Shown here: positions 1,490-24,783 of the stretch, one piece after another
How positions within the stretch are numbered: the first letter of the stretch is position 1
Layout: every line of letters begins with the position of its first letter
Source: Thioclava marina
Lineage (GTDB): Bacteria > Pseudomonadota > Alphaproteobacteria > Rhodobacterales > Rhodobacteraceae
NCBI RefSeq assembly: GCF_002020135.1
Contig: NZ_MPZS01000001.1
Span: 930,001-994,000 of the forward strand
DNA: 64,000 bases
Reading direction: 5' to 3'
Notes under the pieces: generated by a model
The model's input: only the letters and a program-made list of their open reading frames with translations
Told to the model about the DNA's origin: nothing
The model's database searches: none
Made by a program: the position numbers and the translations under genes

Positions 1490-1917
1490 CCAAGACCATT
1501 CTCTGCGCGATCGACATCAACCGCCCCAAGACCGAACGCAAGGTTCTCGAATGGGCGGAGAAACTGGCCACGATGGAGGGCGCCCAGCTCGACGTGATCA
1601 CCGTGGTGCCCGATTACGGATCGGCGGTCGTGGGCGCGTTCTTCTCGGACGATCACACCGCCAAGGCCAAGGAACACGCCCATGACTTGCTCGCAAAATT
1701 CGTGAGCGAGGTGATCGGCGCCGAAGCAAATTCGAAAGTGCGCCATATCGTCGGCGTCGGCACCGCCTATCACGAGATCATCAGCGTCGCGGAAAAGGAC
1801 GGCGCGGATCTGATCGTGCTCGGCGCGCATCGCCCGGATCTCAGCGACTACCTGCTCGGCCCGAATGCCGCGCGCGTGGTGCGCCACTCGAACTGCTCGG
1901 TCTTCGTGGTCCGCTGA
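1486..1917 (+). CDS. UspA-family universal stress protein, TRAP-coupled
   Basis: A 143-residue single-domain UspA protein, predicted cytoplasmic. The N-terminal beta strand TILCAIDINRP and the C-terminal segment LIVLGAHRPDLSDYLLGPNA are typical. The usual G-x2-G-x9-G-(S/T) nucleotide-binding motif is degenerate here: the second glycine is absent and GPN replaces GS, so ATP binding cannot be assumed. It overlaps the TRAP permease by four bases, so the two are probably translationally coupled. A Usp encoded next to a TRAP transporter recalls TeaD of Halomonas, which modulates the ectoine TRAP transporter TeaABC. A similar regulatory role is an inference from context. Confidence 0.9.
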   Translation: MTKTILCAIDINRPKTERKVLEWAEKLATMEGAQLDVITVVPDYGSAVVGAFFSDDHTAKAKEHAHDLLAKFVSEVIGAEANSKVRHIVGVGTAYHEIISVAEKDGADLIVLGAHRPDLSDYLLGPNAARVVRHSNCSVFVVR

Positions 1918-1937
1918 GGTTTCCAGCGACGGCAATT

Positions 1938-1971
1938 GACGGGGCGCAGCGCGAAAGCGTTGCGCCCCGTC
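1938..1971. terminator. strong palindromic hairpin between uspA and luxI
   Basis: A 15-bp stem (1938-1952 with 1957-1971, one G-T pair) closes on a GAAA tetraloop. It lies between the convergent uspA and luxI genes and can fold on either transcript. Neither side has a clean T-run, so it may stabilise 3' ends or terminate weakly. Confidence 0.6.
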
Positions 1972-1996
1972 CGCGTTCTGGCCATCGGTGCACCAG

Positions 1997-2662
1997 CTAG
2001 GCTGCGGGCTGATAGACCGCGGCCTCGCCTCGCCCGGCAAGCACGCAGGCTCCGGCCAGCTCGGCGCGGCGATGGTTCGAATACTCCGCCGGCATCCGCA
2101 ACGCCGCATATTGGCGCCCGTCCTCATCGTTGCGATAGGTTGGCCCCATGCGGCTCACATCATAGCCGAGCTGGCGCAGAGCCCGCATCAATGCAAGCGA
2201 CGACAGGCAGATCAGCTCGCTCGCACCGCGTGCAAGCGCCCGTTCCACCAATCCGTCGACGATCATCCGCAGGCAGGCGGCACGCTCGGCATGGGTCGTC
2301 AGCGTCTCCGAAATCACGAGGCGGGTACATTCCCAGACCTCGGGGCTGGCGATCTCGTCGGGCAGGATCTCTGGCGGGATATGAGGCAGCTTGCCCAGAT
2401 GCGCGTCGCGCAGCATGTAGGTGCTGCCGCCCCAGATCGCAGCCGTCGACATCGCCCGCGCCCCGCCGACCACCCGCCCATCCTTCAGAACGAGCGAGTA
2501 ATGGGCAAGCGGCGTGTCGTACTGGTCCATTTCCACGTCGTCGTTATGGGGTACATCCCAGCCCAGTTCGTCGACGAAGACTTGCTTGCGCAGCCGCAGG
2601 AAATCGTAAAACGCGGTGCCGAAGCGGTGAAGTTCCGAAAATTCAAAGGTGCAGTTTTGCAT
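1997..2662 (-). CDS. luxI: LuxI-family acyl-homoserine lactone synthase
   Basis: Predicted to make an N-acyl-homoserine lactone signal from S-adenosylmethionine and an acyl-ACP in the cytoplasm. The 221-residue protein has the LuxI signature residues: R25, F29 and W35 in RKQVFVDELGW, then E44, D46 and D49, R69 in GGARAM, and E111 and R114 in WECTRLV. The start was placed at the ATG at 2662 because AAGGAG lies just upstream; an in-frame ATG 16 codons earlier (2710) has no comparable site. It follows luxR on the same strand after a 72-base gap that contains an inverted repeat (2719-2739). Acyl chain length cannot be predicted. Confidence 0.93.
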   Translation of the reverse strand: MQNCTFEFSELHRFGTAFYDFLRLRKQVFVDELGWDVPHNDDVEMDQYDTPLAHYSLVLKDGRVVGGARAMSTAAIWGGSTYMLRDAHLGKLPHIPPEILPDEIASPEVWECTRLVISETLTTHAERAACLRMIVDGLVERALARGASELICLSSLALMRALRQLGYDVSRMGPTYRNDEDGRQYAALRMPAEYSNHRRAELAGACVLAGRGEAAVYQPAA

Positions 2663-2718
2663 TGGGTTCTCCTTCTGGATACCCAATCGAAACCATGAAT
2701 TTATGAACAATACACCAT

Positions 2719-2739
2719 TTTAGGTTGCGTTTACCTAAA
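2719..2739. promoter_or_regulatory. inverted repeat upstream of luxI (candidate operator)
   Basis: Perfect 7-bp arms TTTAGGT (2719-2725) and ACCTAAA (2733-2739) are separated by 7 bases. The repeat begins 57 bases upstream of the luxI start and overlaps the luxR stop codon. Size and place suit a LuxR-type operator, but the arms run AGGT...ACCT, opposite to the classical ACCTG...CAGGT lux box. Binding by LuxR is therefore only a possibility. A weak luxR terminator is the alternative, though no T-run follows. Confidence 0.45.
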
Positions 2740-3340
2740 TCAATCGCCTCGAAGTGGCAATAGCCAGCATCTCGATGGCATTCTTTGCACCAAGCTTGCG
2801 CGAAGCCGATGTCAACCGCGCCTTCACCCCGCTTTCACTGATGTCGAGCTCTGCCGCTATCTGCTTGATCAGAAGCCCGTCCGCCCGGTAGCGGATGGCC
2901 TCCAGCTCAGCCGCGGTGAGCGAGCGGTGCGAAGCATCGAGATGCAGCTCGCGCAGCATCGCGAACACCTCGTCGAGTTCCTCATCGGTGAAATCACGAT
3001 CCGAGCGGAACAGCACGGCATAGCTGCGTCGGCCAACGTCATGGGGATCGTTGAAAGAGACCGTCGCACCGAAACGCAGCCCCATCTGCCGTGCCATCTG
3101 GCGCACGCCACGCGGATCTTCGAGCCTCATGTCATCCCAGCGCACCCAGCCGAGATTGCCGTAGACCCAGCGCATCGAGGGATCCTGGACCACCAGCCCT
3201 TCCTGGGTGTAGCGATCCACCCATGTGCTATCCAGTCGGTTGAGCTCGGACTCGGGAAAAGCATAACCTACGCGCAGCGCAACATAAAAGCCGGCTGGTG
3301 CGATGGCCTGTAGACGTGTATCGCAGTCCCTGATGTCCAT
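2735..3340 (-). CDS. luxR: LuxR-family autoinducer-binding transcription regulator
   Basis: The 201-residue protein has an N-terminal autoinducer-binding domain (about 1-130) and a C-terminal LuxR/GerE helix-turn-helix (about 140-195, containing KQIAAELDISESGVKARL). Ligand-pocket residues of the family are in place: W40, Y44, D53, P54 and W68. It lies immediately upstream of luxI in the same direction, the layout of a cognate signal receptor and synthase. It is shorter than TraR or LuxR (about 235-250 residues). Upstream and divergent is a gene for a related protein that has only the ligand-binding domain. Confidence 0.92.
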   Translation of the reverse strand: MDIRDCDTRLQAIAPAGFYVALRVGYAFPESELNRLDSTWVDRYTQEGLVVQDPSMRWVYGNLGWVRWDDMRLEDPRGVRQMARQMGLRFGATVSFNDPHDVGRRSYAVLFRSDRDFTDEELDEVFAMLRELHLDASHRSLTAAELEAIRYRADGLLIKQIAAELDISESGVKARLTSASRKLGAKNAIEMLAIATSRRLI

Positions 3341-3437
3341 CAGTTGGTCAAATCACTTGCGCTCCGAATGCACTCGCCCTACCGTTCCGGGGTCGCAGTC
3401 GGGCCAGACAGGAACAACCTAAAGACGAAAGTCGGCG

Positions 3438-3869
3438 ATGAAAACAGCAAACCGTAAAGAAATAGCGGCAACACTCGACGAGTTGAGTGCGATCTGCGAC
3501 ACCGGCTTCGCGCTCGCCCTGCACATTCGCTTCACGCGCCCGAACATCCTCTATCGCACCTATCCGCAGAAATGGCTCGACCATTACAGCGAACACGGAA
3601 TGATGATCGAAGATCCCGTGGTGCTCTGGGGGCTGCGCGAAACGGGCATGGTCCGCTGGGCTGACCTGCCCGACCCGCTGGGCATCGTCTCTCAGGCGGA
3701 GGCCTTCGGATTGCGCAACGGGCTGACCTGCTCTGTCGGCCCGAACAGCTCGCGCTCGATTTCGGGTTTCACCCGGAGTTCGGGCCCGTTCAGCGACAGC
3801 GAGGCCGAACATCTTCTGGCCCTGACCCAGAGGCTGCACGACATGACGGAAAACCTCTCCGATCTCTGA
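3438..3869 (+). CDS. autoinducer-binding-domain protein without HTH (LuxR-like, possible antiactivator)
   Basis: A 143-residue protein that aligns over its whole length with the N-terminal ligand-binding domain of the neighbouring LuxR. The pocket residues W46, Y50, D59, P60 and W74 all remain, in motifs such as WLDHYSEHGMMIEDP and GMVRWADL. The protein ends where the linker to the DNA-binding domain would start, and the downstream 150 bases hold no HTH-like frame, so this is a short gene and not a frameshift. TrlR of Ti plasmids, a truncated TraR, blocks TraR by forming inactive dimers; a similar role, or signal buffering, is inferred. It is divergent from luxR with 97 bases between them. 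A terminator lies at 4008-4040. Confidence 0.85.
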   Translation: MKTANRKEIAATLDELSAICDTGFALALHIRFTRPNILYRTYPQKWLDHYSEHGMMIEDPVVLWGLRETGMVRWADLPDPLGIVSQAEAFGLRNGLTCSVGPNSSRSISGFTRSSGPFSDSEAEHLLALTQRLHDMTENLSDL

Positions 3870-4247
3870 GTGCCGCTGCCGCGCGCATCCCGAAAAGTTC
3901 CGGCTTTCAGCCGCTTGCGGCGTGTCGCGCGGATCAGGCCAACTCGTGCGTTCCGCAGCGCCGCGAATCGTTAAGGGGCGCCGGGAAGGAAAATCGAAAC
4001 ACGATGGCGCTCAGACAATACAACCTGAGCGTGTTTTTTTCATCATTCCGAATACCACTTTCAGACAATCCCACGTGATTGCACCCGAGCGCCCTCTGTT
4101 TTCCTTGATCTGCATTAAAGACGTTACCTACCCTATTGAATATTGTTAACTCAGGGATTTTACGGAGACGCCGTTATCCTCCTTTGCTGCCAGCAGGAGT
4201 GGCGTTTATTCTGTGGGGTACCTGTTCTTTCTGTGGGGGGAAGGACA
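3870..4247. other. intergenic region between the LuxR-like gene and the polysaccharide operon
   Basis: About 380 bases without a convincing gene. It contains the terminator at 4008-4040 and then an AT-richer stretch (about 4040-4200) that presumably carries the promoter of the polysaccharide operon. I could not assign -35 and -10 boxes with confidence. The reading frame of the next gene is open back to 4143, but the better start is at 4248. Confidence 0.5.
4008..4040 (+). terminator. Rho-independent terminator after the HTH-less LuxR-like gene
   Basis: Stem CGCTCAG (4008-4014) pairs with CTGAGCG (4025-4031), with a 10-base loop. It is followed by TG and a run of seven T (4034-4040). It lies 139 bases after the stop of the upstream gene and insulates the polysaccharide operon. 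Confidence 0.8.
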
Positions 4248-5276
4248 ATGACGGAACTGCCGCGTTTCAACGCGCGAGATCGCGCGCGACGTGAAAGAGG
4301 GATGGCGCTGCGCTGTCTCGTAACGGGTGGGGCGGGTTTTCTCGGATCTCATCTCAGCGATCGGTTGATAGAGAGGGGGCATTCGGTGATCTGCGTCGAC
4401 AACCTCCAGACGGGCCGGTTGAGCAACATCGCCCATCTGCTGGGAAATCCCGCATTCGAGTACCGACAGCACGACGTGATCGCGCCGCTCGAGATCTCGG
4501 GCCGGATCGACCGGATCTACAATCTCGCCTGCGCGGCCTCGCCGCCGAAGTACCAGCGTGATCCGATCCATACCTTCCAGACCTGCGTGTTCGGCATCCT
4601 GAACATGCTCGGGCTGGCCCAGCGCGAAGGTGCGCGTATCCTGCAAGCGTCGACGTCAGAGGTCTATGGCGACCCCGAGATCAGCCCGCAGCCCGAAAGC
4701 TATCGCGGCGTGGTCAATACGGTCGGCCCGCGCTCTTGTTACGACGAGGGCAAGCGCGCCGCCGAAACGTTGATGCATGATTTCCACGAGGCGCGCGGCG
4801 TCGATATCCGCATCGCGCGGATCTTCAACACCTACGGCCCGCGCATGGACCCGGGCGACGGGCGCGTGGTGTCGAACTTCGTCACCCAAGCGCTCTCGGA
4901 CAAGCCGATCACCATTTACGGTGACGGCATGCAAACCCGCTCGCTGTGCTTCATGGACGACCTGATCGAGGGGCTGATTGCGCTGATGGAAAGCGAAACG
5001 GTTGGCCCCGAGCCGGTCAATCTCGGCAATCCCGGCGAGTTCAGTGTCGGCGAGATCGCACGGATCGTGCGCGACATGTGCAATTCGCGCTCGCAGATCG
5101 TCCATTCTGAACGCCCTGTTGACGATCCGCACCAGCGCTGTCCAGATATCGGTCGCGCCAGGCGCATGCTAGGCTGGGCGCCGACGGTCAGTCTGACCGA
5201 GGGGCTTGCCCCGACGATCGCCTATTTCCGCTCGGAGTTGGGTCTCGTCGGGAGGGAGATTGGAGGCGTTGCGTGA
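4248..5276 (+). CDS. uxs: UDP-glucuronate decarboxylase (UDP-xylose synthase-like SDR)
   Basis: An extended short-chain dehydrogenase/reductase of 342 residues, predicted to convert UDP-glucuronate to UDP-xylose in the cytoplasm. The Rossmann motif GGAGFLG is near residues 26-32 (27-33 counting from an alternative register). The UXS-type STSEVYGDP segment carries the expected catalytic Ser/Thr and Glu, and SCYDEGK provides the YxxxK pair. Further family motifs are [13 protein letters not shown] and [10 protein letters not shown]. The start was set at the ATG at 4248, preceded by GGGGGGAAGGA; the frame is open back to 4143 and an ATG at 4302 is a shorter option. It overlaps the next gene by four bases (GTGA), indicating an operon with the glycosyltransferase. 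A related epimerase or dehydratase is less likely. Confidence 0.85.
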
Positions 5277-7090
5277 TATTAAGGCCTGAGATACGCGCCG
5301 CGCAGGCGGCAGGTTATCTCGCTCCGGTACTGAACCGGTCGCAATCCATGCGATACCGCACGCTGATCGCTCTGTGGCTTCTCGCAACCGTCTATTTCTG
5401 GAGCTGGTGGCTCGACCCGGTTCACATCCTAAGTTGGCCACCCTTCCTGATCATCACGGCAACGCTGGCGTGGCTGCTGGCGATGCAGCTCTATTTCATG
5501 GTCGTCTTCCTGCAGGCGCAGCGCGCCGTCTCTCCGGACCCTGAGCCGGGCAGATGGCGGGTTGCGATGATCACGACGAAGACGCCCTCCGAGCCGTTCG
5601 ACGTGGTGCGCAAGACGCTGGAGGCGATGCTGGCGCAGGACTATCCGCATGACACATGGCTTGCCGATGAAGACCCGGCGCCGGAAACTCTCGCATGGTG
5701 TGCGGCGCATGGGGTGAAAGTCTCGTCGCGCAAGGGTGTGGACGCCTATCATCAGGCGACATGGCCACGTCGCACGCGATGCAAGGAAGGCAACCTCGCC
5801 TATTTCTATGATCATTGGGGCTATCGTGACTACGACATCGTCAGTCAGCTCGACGCCGATCACGTGCCAAGCCCGGGCTATCTCCTTGAAATGTTGCGCC
5901 CCTTCGCCGATCCCGACGTGGGCTATGTCAGCGCGCCTTCGATCTGTGCGGCCAATGCCGACAAGAGCTGGGCCGCGCGCACGCGCCTCTATTTCGAAGC
6001 CGCCTTCCATGGCGTGTTCCAGGCTGGTTACACCGGCGCGCTGGCCCCGATGTGCATCGGCTCGCATTACGCGGTGCGCACGACGGCTTTGAAAGAGGCC
6101 GGCGGTCTCGGGCCGGAATTGGCCGAGGATCACTCGACCACGATGCTCATGAACGCAGCGGGCTGGCGCGGTGTGCACGCGATCGACGCGATCGCGGTGG
6201 GAGACGGGCCCGCCACCGTGACCGATCTCGTGACGCAGGAGTTCCAGTGGTCGCGCTCGCTGCTCAGCCTGCTTCTGCGCTACACGCCCTGCTATCTCGG
6301 CAAAATGCCGTTCCGGCTCAAGTTCCTGTTCGTGCTTTGCCAGAGCTGGTACGTCTTTTTCGCGTTGTCGATGTCGATGATGTATATAGCACCGATCATC
6401 GCCGTGACCTTCGACCTGCGCTTCGCGGATGTGACCTATCCCGCCTTCATCGGCCATGTGCTGCCTGCGGGCATTCTCACCCTGATCTTCGCCTTCATGC
6501 TGCGCCACGATCAGTTTTTCCGCCCCAAGGACGCCAAGATCATCGCCTGGGAGAAAGCCCTCTTCGTGATGATGCAATGGCCCTGGGTTCTGTCAGGGGT
6601 CCTAATGGCAGTGTACGATCGGCTCTCGGGGAAATTCGTCGACTTCCGCATCACGCCAAAGGGCGAAGCGGCGTCGCTCGTACTGCCCGAGAGGATCATC
6701 GCAGTCTATGGCGGGCTCGCCCTTGGCGCCCTGCTTCCGGTGCTGCTCGTCGGCAATGTGACCGAAGCGCGGGGGTTCTACCTGCTCTCGTTTTTCAACG
6801 CGGCTTTCTACTTTGTCCTGCTCAGCGTCATCTTCGGCGCGCGCGCACGGCATGTGCAGATCGATTGGCGGGGCTGGCCCCGTGACATGGCGGTCCAGAT
6901 GGGCACGTTGAGCATGATCGTCGCACTCGGCTTCAGCGCGCTTTGGCTGCGCGGCAGCGAGAGCCTTTATGCATTGATGGTCGGACTGAAATCGGTTCAG
7001 CTGGCCAAAGTCGAATACATCGTTTCGGGCGCCGGAATGGGCGCGCCGGGACAACCGAAATTTCGCGTAAGCCCTGCTTGGAAAGACTAG
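5273..7090 (+). CDS. membrane glycosyltransferase, cellulose-synthase-like GT2
   Basis: A 605-residue inner-membrane GT2 enzyme, probably polymerising a polysaccharide from a UDP-sugar and exporting it. Two N-terminal helices (about 30-48 and 54-80) precede a cytoplasmic catalytic domain, which is followed by several more helices. Catalytic markers are LADEDP (D132/D134), KEGN (171-174), DADH (D194/D196), AEDHST (E285/D286) and QEFQW (322-326). The last corresponds to QxxRW of processive synthases but has Gln in place of Arg. The start is GTG at 5273, overlapping the UXS stop; an ATG further in (residue 26) is a possible alternative. Its neighbours, a UDP-xylose synthase and a secreted hydrolase, suggest an exopolysaccharide operon. 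No PilZ domain is seen. Confidence 0.85.
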
Positions 7091-7122: not shown

Positions 7123-8037
7123 ATGAAACACCACAACATAACGCGCCGAGGCGTGATGGCCGGAGCGGCGGCTCTGGGTCTGTCCCTGTCAATGCGACAG
7201 GCACAGGCAGCAGCCCCCGTCGAGGTCCCGCCCGGCACCCTCCCCTTTGGCGTCTATGACCCCGACGGGGATTTCGCCGACAAGACGGGCGTCGTCATCG
7301 AACACCTCTTCCTGCCGTGGGAAGACGTATACCTGCCCTCGCTCAACGATGCGGACGAATATGCGCTCGCGCGGAACCGCGCGCTTCTCGTTACGCTCGA
7401 GCCCTGGACCTGGTCGCGCTCCGAGCGCAACACCGCGCAATATCTGCGCCGTGGCATCGAGCGCGGCGAATACGATCCGAACATGATCGCGATCGCGGAA
7501 GTTCTGGCGACGCTCAAAAGCCCCGTCACGCTGCGTTTCGCCCATGAGATGGATGACAAGACCGGGCAGTTCATCTGGTCGGATTGGAAACCCGATGATT
7601 ACATCTCGGCCTATCGCCGGATGACCGATCTCGCCAAGCAATACGCGCCCGACATCTCACTGATGTGGTCGCCGCTCGGTGACGAGAACATGGCCGATTA
7701 CTATCCGGGTGACGAATATGCCGACATCATCGGCCTGACCGTTTTCGGCCTTCAGGCCTGGGACAAGGCGAAATACGGCCGCGACCGGACCTTCGACGAC
7801 ATCTTCCGTCCGCGCTACGAGCGCGCCGCGGCCTTCGGCAAGCCCGTTGCGGTGGCCGAGCTCGGTTATGTGGGCGATCAGGCCTATGTCGACATGTGGA
7901 AGAACCGCATACGCGAAGAGAAGCCCGATTACCCGAGCCTCGTCGGTGTCAGCTATTTCAACCAGATCGAGGTTTATCCCTGGCCGGAGGGCTTCGGCAC
8001 GCCGGATTGGCGAATCAAGAACCAGGTCCTGAGCTGA
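7123..8037 (+). CDS. Tat-exported glycoside hydrolase, GH26-like
   Basis: A 304-residue secreted protein. The N-terminus has a twin-arginine signal (TRRGVMAG, R8-R9, then a hydrophobic stretch ending near AQAA at 30). The mature part looks like a GH26 beta-mannanase/endoglucanase TIM barrel: RFAHEMDD supplies the likely acid/base E142, and VAVAELGYV the likely nucleophile E246, with ITLEPW-like and MWSPLGDEN segments between. The start follows an excellent AAGGAGGG site. It sits 32 bases after the membrane glycosyltransferase, so it probably trims or releases the polymer that enzyme makes, as cellulase partners do in cellulose operons. The substrate is not determinable here. Confidence 0.7.
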   Translation: MKHHNITRRGVMAGAAALGLSLSMRQAQAAAPVEVPPGTLPFGVYDPDGDFADKTGVVIEHLFLPWEDVYLPSLNDADEYALARNRALLVTLEPWTWSRSERNTAQYLRRGIERGEYDPNMIAIAEVLATLKSPVTLRFAHEMDDKTGQFIWSDWKPDDYISAYRRMTDLAKQYAPDISLMWSPLGDENMADYYPGDEYADIIGLTVFGLQAWDKAKYGRDRTFDDIFRPRYERAAAFGKPVAVAELGYVGDQAYVDMWKNRIREEKPDYPSLVGVSYFNQIEVYPWPEGFGTPDWRIKNQVLS

Positions 8038-23549: not shown

Positions 23550-24566
23550 TCAATCGAGCCGGTCCGCAAGCCACTCGCGCATCAGCCATCCCGCAATCGC
23601 ACCGGCGCGCGGCGGACTGATCTCCGGATCACGCCCGGCCAGCACGCACAGAAGCCGCTCGCGCGAAATCCAGCGCGCATCGGCGATCTCGACCGGGTCG
23701 ATGGTGATCTCGGAACTGGTGGCGATGCCGTGACAGCCCAGCATCAGCGAGGCCGGGAAGGGCCAGGGCTGCGAGGCGACGAAGCGCACCGGCCCGACAT
23801 GCACGCCCGCCTCCTCGAACACCTCGCGGCGCACGGCCGCCTCAAAGGTCTCGCCCGGCTCCATGAAGCCCGCAAGCGCCGAATACATGGTCTCGGGCCA
23901 ATGCGGACCGCGCCCCAACAGCACTTCGTTGCCGCGCGTGATCAGCATGATCACCACCGGGTCGGTGCGCGGAAAATGCGGCCGCTCGCAATCGGGGCAA
24001 CGGCGTTGCCAGCCCGACTGCTCGGGCACGCTCGCGGCACCGCAAAATGAACAGAAGCTGTGTGAGCGGTGCCACTCCAGCATCGCCCGAGCGGTCGCGG
24101 CGATTTCGGCCTCGGCCGGGGTCAGCAATCCCATCCGGCCGCGCAGCTCGGCGAAGACGACGCCTTCGGGCAGGTCCGGATGGCGCTGCTCGCTCGGATC
24201 GAAGAAAGCCGCGCCGTCGGGACGCTCTCCCTCGGGCTCGAACGCCGAGAGATCCCGGGCGAAAATCGCGCGGCCATCGGCGAGCCCCACGAACAGCTCC
24301 AGCCCATCAATCCCGGCAAGGACCGGATCGGCACAGGGCAACAGATGAAGCCCCTGCGCATCGAACAGCGGCCGCCCACGCCAGAGCCCGATCACCCGCG
24401 ATTGCGGATCCGCGCGAAACGCCGCAAGCGCCTCGGCGTCCCCGCGCAGATGGGCGGCTCGGTCCAGCCCGCCTTGTGGATTGACGAAAGCCAGCCCCCT
24501 CGGGTCGAGACGCCCTCCCCTTGCGGGCGGCATGGCAGAGGCGGCGGCGGGGCGAGGATCGGTCAT
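23550..24566 (-). CDS. nudC: NAD(H) pyrophosphatase / NAD-capped RNA decapping hydrolase
   Basis: A 338-residue Nudix enzyme hydrolysing NADH to NMNH and AMP and, in NudC homologues, removing NAD caps from RNA. A four-cysteine zinc site is formed by CSFC and CPDC. The Nudix box runs from GFMEPGETFEAA to REVFEEAGV and is complete. The NADH-specific motif SQPWPFPAS follows it. The start at 24566 has AAGGAG upstream; the frame is open further back to 24653 without a good site. The long N-terminal domain is normal for NudC. Confidence 0.93.
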   Translation of the reverse strand: MTDPRPAAASAMPPARGGRLDPRGLAFVNPQGGLDRAAHLRGDAEALAAFRADPQSRVIGLWRGRPLFDAQGLHLLPCADPVLAGIDGLELFVGLADGRAIFARDLSAFEPEGERPDGAAFFDPSEQRHPDLPEGVVFAELRGRMGLLTPAEAEIAATARAMLEWHRSHSFCSFCGAASVPEQSGWQRRCPDCERPHFPRTDPVVIMLITRGNEVLLGRGPHWPETMYSALAGFMEPGETFEAAVRREVFEEAGVHVGPVRFVASQPWPFPASLMLGCHGIATSSEITIDPVEIADARWISRERLLCVLAGRDPEISPPRAGAIAGWLMREWLADRLD

Positions 24567-24783
24567 GGGAGGCTCTCCTTTATCCAAAGGCTTCTCACAG
24601 CACAGACGGCGAAGCCAGAGCGCAATCGACATACAAGCACCCCGCTCGCGCAAAAGAGAAAATCAATGTTGCGCGCAATTTAGCTACTAGCGAAGTGCAA
24701 ACCTCTACTTTAGGTTGACTCGAAGAATGTTGGCCTATTTCGGTCAGGGCGCGATCGCGGCAAACCGCGACTAAGGGAAGAAG

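Follow-up and report, generated by a model that had tools for sequence, protein, structure and literature searches.

LuxR receptors are usually described as single proteins that both sense the signal and bind DNA. A quorum-sensing locus of Thioclava marina, located in a window of 64,000 nucleotides (the whole stretch of DNA analysed here), raises the question of what a protein with an autoinducer-binding domain and without an HTH is doing beside a complete LuxR-type regulator and a luxI-type gene. Hereafter the HTH-less protein is called A and its complete neighbor R (Table 1).

The locus and its HTH-less gene

The open frame of A extends from an ATG start to a TGA stop, and Pfam detects in its product a single domain, Autoind_bind (E-value 9.6e-16, residues 37-135). 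R possesses both Autoind_bind (2.6e-10) and GerE (4.3e-9), while the open frame downstream of R on the same strand matches Autoind_synth (4.4e-14) and is thus luxI-type. These results agree with the sequence-only reading, according to which A ends before any HTH, the neighboring LuxR is complete and a gap of 97 bases separates R and A. The ligand-pocket residues listed there for A (W46, Y50, D59, P60 and W74) are all present, and A additionally has Y42, A87, G91 and G95, i.e. all nine pocket positions are kept. As the start of luxI, the ATG at 2665, which has a Shine-Dalgarno sequence, appears more likely than the TTG at 2710 of the longest open frame. The reading had also assigned A its own promoter in the common gap; the promoter scan found no sigma-70-like promoters in 1900-4300 (0.6 expected), so the argument for it is purely positional. 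The Thioclava marina genome contains four Autoind_bind matches: A, R, a GtaR-type LuxR (G000:C1:1404818-1405390) encoded next to another luxI, and a further LuxR at a separate place.

Table 1. Features of the locus and its surroundings (positions in the window)
Feature	Position	Strand	Basis
A: CerN-type HTH-less autoinducer-binding protein, 143 aa	3438..3869	+	Autoind_bind only; HTH-less tree group
R: CerM-type complete LuxR-type regulator, 201 aa	2735..3340	-	Autoind_bind + GerE
luxI-type AHL synthase gene	1997..2665	-	Autoind_synth; SD + ATG 2665
Hairpin across luxI Shine-Dalgarno and start codon	2661..2687	-	fold z -2.6 (35, 43 bases), -1.8 (65 bases)
CAACCTAAA upstream of luxI, candidate operator	2719..2727	-	3 window copies vs 0.04 expected
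CAACCTAAA upstream of A, candidate operator	3415..3423	+	window, genome and Thioclava counts
Gap common to divergent R and A, 97 bases	3341..3437	.	ORF coordinates
NAD-dependent epimerase/dehydratase, starts sugar-polymer gene cluster beside the module	4248..5276	+	synteny, 8 Thioclava genomes including that of the window
Context: glycosyltransferase family 2	5273..7090	+	neighborhood comparison
Context: glycosyl hydrolase family 26	7126..8037	+	neighborhood comparison

Orthologues of A (60-100% identity, open frame of 148-182 codons) are found in 11 of 16 Thioclava genomes, in all 11 divergent to an R-type gene with luxI next after it; the closest named records come from T. pacifica (93%) and T. 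atlantica (77%). Against the nearest genome, A, R and LuxI have dN/dS values of 0.060, 0.077 and 0.070, respectively, which indicates purifying selection on A. A search for an HTH remnant 3' of the A stop in the three forward frames returned none (best E-value 0.2). AlphaFold single-chain models built from three-row alignments (mean pLDDT 44 for A and 46 for R) were too poor to use.

The CerN-type family and its partner

The closest studied pair is CerN/CerM of Cereibacter sphaeroides: according to the available text of PMC11655674, CerN, which has no HTH, needs AHL to bind CerM and then removes it from DNA, while CerM binds DNA without AHL. Mutation of either cerN or cerI abolishes swimming, and the cerN mutant is rescued by loss of cerM (PMC11655674). 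AHL alone weakened CerM-DNA binding somewhat in vitro (PMC11655674), hence CerM may bind some AHL. In genome G061, taken here for C. sphaeroides, locus L096 shows the order CerN, CerM, CerR, LuxI, and its CerM-type protein has F at the position of W57, as in PMC11655674. A is 41% identical to the CerN-type protein of L096 and R is 40% identical to the CerM-type one, against 34% between A and R and 30% between CerM and CerN; A shares 43% with the GtaR-type LuxR encoded in the same genome.

A profile of 19 HTH-less proteins was compared with 296 Rhodobacteraceae genomes, about one per genus, at a cut-off of 1e-20. Among these genomes 137 matched, full-length LuxRs included, and CerN-type genes were identified in at least 60 of the 296, roughly one in five; a class-wide sample of 289 genomes yielded two with matches, both from Rhodobacteraceae. 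Gene neighborhoods were taken for 60 family matches (short open frames and ambiguous long ones), for 40 further regions whose matches have open frames of at least 204, and for 30 Thioclava stretches. Sorting of the ORFs by profiles revealed the HTH to be absent from 78/78 CerN-type ORFs and present in 75/75 CerM-type, 54/54 GtaR-type and 11/11 CerR-type ones, with 0-42 residues following the binding domain in the CerN-type and at least 60 in the other three types. A fusion of this gene to an HTH in other genomes, the case that the sequence-only reading had named against itself, was searched for and occurs in none of the 78 CerN-type ORFs.

Because sorting by full-length profiles favors HTH-bearing proteins for the non-CerN groups, the trees were restricted to the binding domain. 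In the FastTree run, which used 214 unique rows out of 218, the 76 HTH-less rows formed one group (support 0.86) and the 73 CerM-type rows another (1.0). A quick IQ-TREE run with 94 rows (36 HTH-less; a sample without CerR-type rows) gave supports of 96, 99 and 88 for the HTH-less, CerM and GtaR groups, and a careful run with 90 rows (34 HTH-less; four long-branch rows of L143 and L153 also dropped) gave 100/96, 100/99 and 94/87, respectively. The CerR-type rows, alignable only in part, formed no group able to root the FastTree tree; the trees have no reliable root and the HTH-less rows are accordingly presented as one side of one branch. On the binding domain, A groups with the CerN-type protein of L096 and R with the CerM-type proteins. 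A TrlR-style recent truncation of R is thereby out, given the A/R identity of 34% and the single group of HTH-less rows. Judged from its sequence, A is a member of an old HTH-less group and no recent truncation. By its features (lack of the HTH, grouping, pocket, CerM-type neighbor) it can be assigned to the CerN family, and R, as a complete LuxR type in the CerM tree group, to the CerM family. In L096 the CerN-type protein has a tail that can be aligned with the first part of the GtaR-type HTH, in agreement with a scenario in which the HTH would have been lost once, long ago, from a full-length ancestor.

That alignment, together with the absence from A of a domain that its relatives have, could also be taken as a sign that A is a degenerate gene without function. 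We regard this as extremely improbable in view of the dN/dS of 0.06, the five pocket positions kept in 76/76 CerN-type proteins, the retention of A in 11/16 Thioclava genomes and the occurrence of the family in at least 60/296 genomes.

The three-gene arrangement for which the sequence-only reading had proposed a genome survey turned out to be common: a CerM-type gene faces 73 of the 78 CerN-type ORFs, with binding-domain starts 47-167 bases apart (median 110), and luxI follows the CerM-type gene in 62 of the 78 loci, of which 9 also contain a CerR-type gene and 53 do not. So that counting would not start from CerN, a reverse search was carried out with a CerM profile (67 matches of at least 209 bits, a cut chosen by us; the next match, at 200.5, is GtaR-type). 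A CerN-type gene lies within two genes of 62 of the 67 matches, divergently in 59; 58 of the matches were already in the set, and among the nine new ones four have a CerN-type gene near and five have none. The pairing of A-type with R-type genes is near-obligate. Within-family distances of CerN-type and CerM-type proteins are correlated over 69 loci (r 0.715, permutation maximum 0.113), a value that includes ordinary shared ancestry.

CerN-type ORFs without a CerM-type gene are those of L055, L056, L064 and L139. The first three (L055 4237-4710, L056 4165-4917, L064 4145-4837) are extra CerN-type genes of three Thioclava genomes, with the CerM-type gene and luxI absent within 9 kb. In Thioclava genome G003, an R-type gene (L057 3870-4478, 58% identical to R) adjoins neither A nor luxI. 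In L143, L205 and L208 the CerN-type and CerM-type genes are found in tandem on one strand, with luxI between them in L143 and L205.

The pairing bears on two other interpretations of A. The signal sink offered by the sequence-only reading leaves the near-obligate pairing unexplained. In the form of an AHL buffer that sets a threshold and has no protein partner, it would agree with a complete pocket under strong selection and with the sequestration proposed in PMC4338825; however, a buffer needs neither a fixed divergent pairing with one LuxR group (73/78) nor correlated divergence, and CerN physically binds CerM (PMC11655674), which makes such a role for A quite improbable. We likewise see little chance that A acts on the second, GtaR-type LuxR of the genome or links both systems: of the two complete LuxRs compared the GtaR-type one is nearer to A (43% vs 34% for R), but the gene pairing is with R and not with gtaR.

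The ligand pocket and a predicted two-protein receptor

TraR Y53 is in direct contact with the ligand (PMC3821632). The alignment column that best parts CerM-type proteins from CerN- and GtaR-type ones corresponds to this residue, which is Y42 in A and L36 in R: Y is found there in 72/76 CerN-type and 52/54 GtaR-type proteins, but in 2/73 CerM-type ones, and the nine pocket residues are all kept in 68/76, 49/54 and 1/73, respectively. In an alignment with RhlR, Y42 of A falls on Y64 (residue numbers counted by hand). R keeps eight of the nine pocket residues, with W57 retained and L36 replacing the tyrosine. Substitution W57F has been proposed as the cause of weaker CerM binding (PMC11655674). 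The family comparison reveals W at this position in 72/73 CerM-type proteins, F being exceptional; because W is kept so widely, loss of Y53 would be the better family-wide candidate. Relative to the literature searched, the loss of the ligand tyrosine in partner-type proteins is new.

Altogether, A and R probably constitute a CerN/CerM-type pair working as a two-protein quorum receptor, and A is more likely its signal-sensing half than a TrlR-like brake or a sink. R, which carries the DNA-binding domain, would act on DNA without signal, like CerM. AHL made by the neighboring LuxI would accumulate and bind the fully conserved pocket of A; the A-AHL complex would then join R through the autoinducer-binding domains and, by analogy with CerN, take it off its sites, presumably the CAACCTAAA sites before luxI and A. 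Since CerM binds DNA without AHL, CerN mediates the signal response rather than damping it. A stops right after the binding domain and is devoid of the tail of 14-42 residues found in 64/78 CerN-type ORFs, hence the mechanistic details may differ from those of CerN.

The sequence-only reading had cast A as a native antiactivator on the model of TrlR, an HTH-less LuxR relative that antagonizes a complete LuxR via heterodimers (PMC13043044, PMC4338825). The general notion of an HTH-less relative acting on a LuxR-type partner holds by comparison with CerN/CerM; the TrlR-like detail does not, since TrlR nearly duplicates TraR (88% identity, a figure quoted in PMC11655674), whereas A and R share 34% and belong to separate groups. 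Moreover, AHL is required for DNA binding by TraR and not by CerM. A TrlR-like dominant negative would form dead heterodimers with R, an ordinary AHL-activated LuxR, and delay induction. The TrlR precedent and the position of an HTH-less binding domain beside a LuxR are in its favor, as is R, which with eight of nine pocket residues may still bind AHL. We nonetheless consider it unlikely: A is no copy of R, the closest studied pair works in reverse (PMC11655674), the ligand tyrosine is found in only 2/73 CerM-type proteins, and a plain brake would be expected, by reasoning, to be lost oftener than a pairing seen in 62/67 cases.

The predicted A/R receptor can be further delimited by comparison with known systems. 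It resembles CerN/CerM in that the gene of an HTH-less binding protein stands beside that of a complete LuxR-type partner near luxI, with the proteins in the same two tree groups, and it differs in that luxI in Thioclava directly follows the CerM-type gene with no CerR between, and in that R keeps W57 but has L for Y53, whereas CerM has F at W57. The GtaR/GtaI-type systems of Rhodobacteraceae possess related full-length LuxRs with the same pocket (the sister relations being unsettled in unrooted trees), all 54 of which carry the HTH. The canonical LuxR, with the binding domain and the HTH in one protein, is a description that A fails and R fits, except for the tyrosine. Subramoni et al. (2015) reported binding-domain-only proteins, often near a complete LuxR gene, and suggested sequestration or interaction; the accessible part of that survey (PMC4338825) names neither a family nor a single origin for them, and neither a partner group nor a mechanism. 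Likewise, in the available text of the open-access papers searched (including PMC3824088, PMC3386692, PMC13345283 and PMC10134790), no survey of CerN is wider than the five genomes of the 2024 paper (PMC11655674).

We tentatively propose a broader scenario, speculative as a whole, in which a Rhodobacteraceae AHL receptor was split once, long ago, into a sensor (A/CerN) with the whole pocket and a partner (R/CerM) without the ligand residue and active in the apo form; its common CerR-less form would be wired directly to luxI, with the CAACCTAAA word (in Thioclava) ahead of both luxI and the sensor gene and with a luxI-gating hairpin, combining de-repression with post-transcriptional control of signal synthesis. 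In the open-access literature searched we found no description of an old split receptor, near-obligate as a pair, together with a hairpin-bearing luxI variant in modules without CerR. If a split receptor of this kind is real, many plain-looking luxR-luxI circuits of Rhodobacteraceae would be misread: the main sensor may be a protein other than the HTH protein beside luxI, whose own response to AHL may be inverted. The loss of Y53, the common CAACCTAAA sites and the hairpin at the luxI ribosome site make the idea directly and cheaply testable.

Candidate operators, the luxI leader and the neighboring cluster

The word CAACCTAAA occurs three times in the window, vs 0.04 expected (before luxI, before A and at 24709-24717), and these are its three copies in the whole 3.65-Mb genome, in which the reversed word is found nine times. 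The copy before luxI forms the left arm and the first spacer bases of the inverted repeat TTTAGGT-N7-ACCTAAA (2719-2739). Both module copies are found in 7/16 Thioclava genomes, i.e. in 7 of the 11 with A, with three to five copies per genome; G002 has only the copy of A, and G001, G005 and G015 have neither. CAACCT was found in 23/71 distinct CerN-CerM gaps, Thioclava included, vs 2.2 expected. The published CerM motif TNT(N5)AAGACA(N2)T gave no match when searched for across the module, even allowing one mismatch; we do not hold this motif as defining, and it may differ at 40% identity. CAACCTAAA is thus a candidate operator of R, distinct from the published motif, and its presence upstream of both luxI and A is new relative to the literature searched.

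The third copy in the window, on the minus strand, is situated between divergent ORFs (a long one from 24784 on the plus strand and 23550-24653 on the minus strand); it probably lies outside the circuit, because no additional copy within 40 kb of the module is listed for any of the other six genomes in which both module copies are present. In genome G001, whose CerM/CerN module has no copy, the word is found at L045 12704-12712 (G001:C17:39203-39211); this site lies roughly 8 kb from the module and some 30 bases ahead of a GtaR-type gene.

In CerR-less modules, the fold z falls below -1.5 for 36 of 52 luxI leaders (mean -2.45). A Shine-Dalgarno sequence was identified in 50 of these leaders, and in 43 of them most of it is paired. 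None of 51 other luxI leaders reaches z<-1.5: 0/42 of the GtaI-type, a set that includes the L178 leader with a doubtful GTG start, and 0/9 in CerR modules, under either of two start choices, 57 bases apart, in two of the nine. The hairpin sets the A/R module apart from both the GtaR/GtaI-type systems and the CerR-bearing modules. Leaders of the other genes seldom reach z<-1.5 (CerN 1/74, CerM 7/72, GtaR 3/54, CerR 2/11). The CerR-less total comprises Thioclava with 10/10 and 42 remaining leaders, 26 of which are below the threshold.

Six Thioclava leaders other than that of the window, whose register is shifted and which was left outside this count, can be aligned in one register: 95% of the cells are paired, vs 80.6% in shuffled alignments, and nine cells change on both sides, vs 4.0 (each with 0/500 shuffles as high). 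The pairs with two-sided change (4 vs 2.7; 95/500 shuffles) and the pair types (6 vs 6.5; 419/500) are not above shuffles, and since the six leaders are two sets of near relatives, the two-sided changes amount to about one or two events. In 13 leaders with a five-base loop the stem is conserved in sequence, with no excess of covariation (0.68 vs 0.65 shuffled). In a scan of five sources the leader hairpin matched no curated Rfam family, the three sub-threshold matches falling elsewhere, and the open-access literature, so far as searched, does not describe a hairpin at the luxI ribosome site of CerM/CerN-type modules. The Shine-Dalgarno hairpin of CerR-less luxI is therefore new relative to that literature. 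In Pseudomonas aeruginosa, the lasI RNA thermometer covers the ribosome site of a gene of the luxI family, and the Thioclava luxI leader is similar to it at the level of general description. It is possible that the hairpin is a translational switch of signal synthesis, in which case it would limit luxI translation.

In eight Thioclava genomes, including that of the window, the module is positioned between a transporter/Usp pair and the epimerase-glycosyltransferase-glycoside hydrolase cluster; in three other Thioclava genomes with A it lies outside that setting, within the stretches compared. CerM and CerN affect polysaccharide genes in C. sphaeroides (PMC11655674), which makes the sugar-polymer cluster a natural candidate target. 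No conserved operator was detected before it: CCTAAA is found in 0/8 gaps and AAAGACG in 3/8, two of them at like places. A CAAC...CGTG block before the cluster, invariant in seven aligned genomes, was dropped as a candidate, since in the window it lies inside a stem that by eye is terminator-like. Downstream of A, at 4009-4045, GCTCAG...CTGAGC followed by a T run, unreported by the promoter scan, also appears terminator-like by eye.
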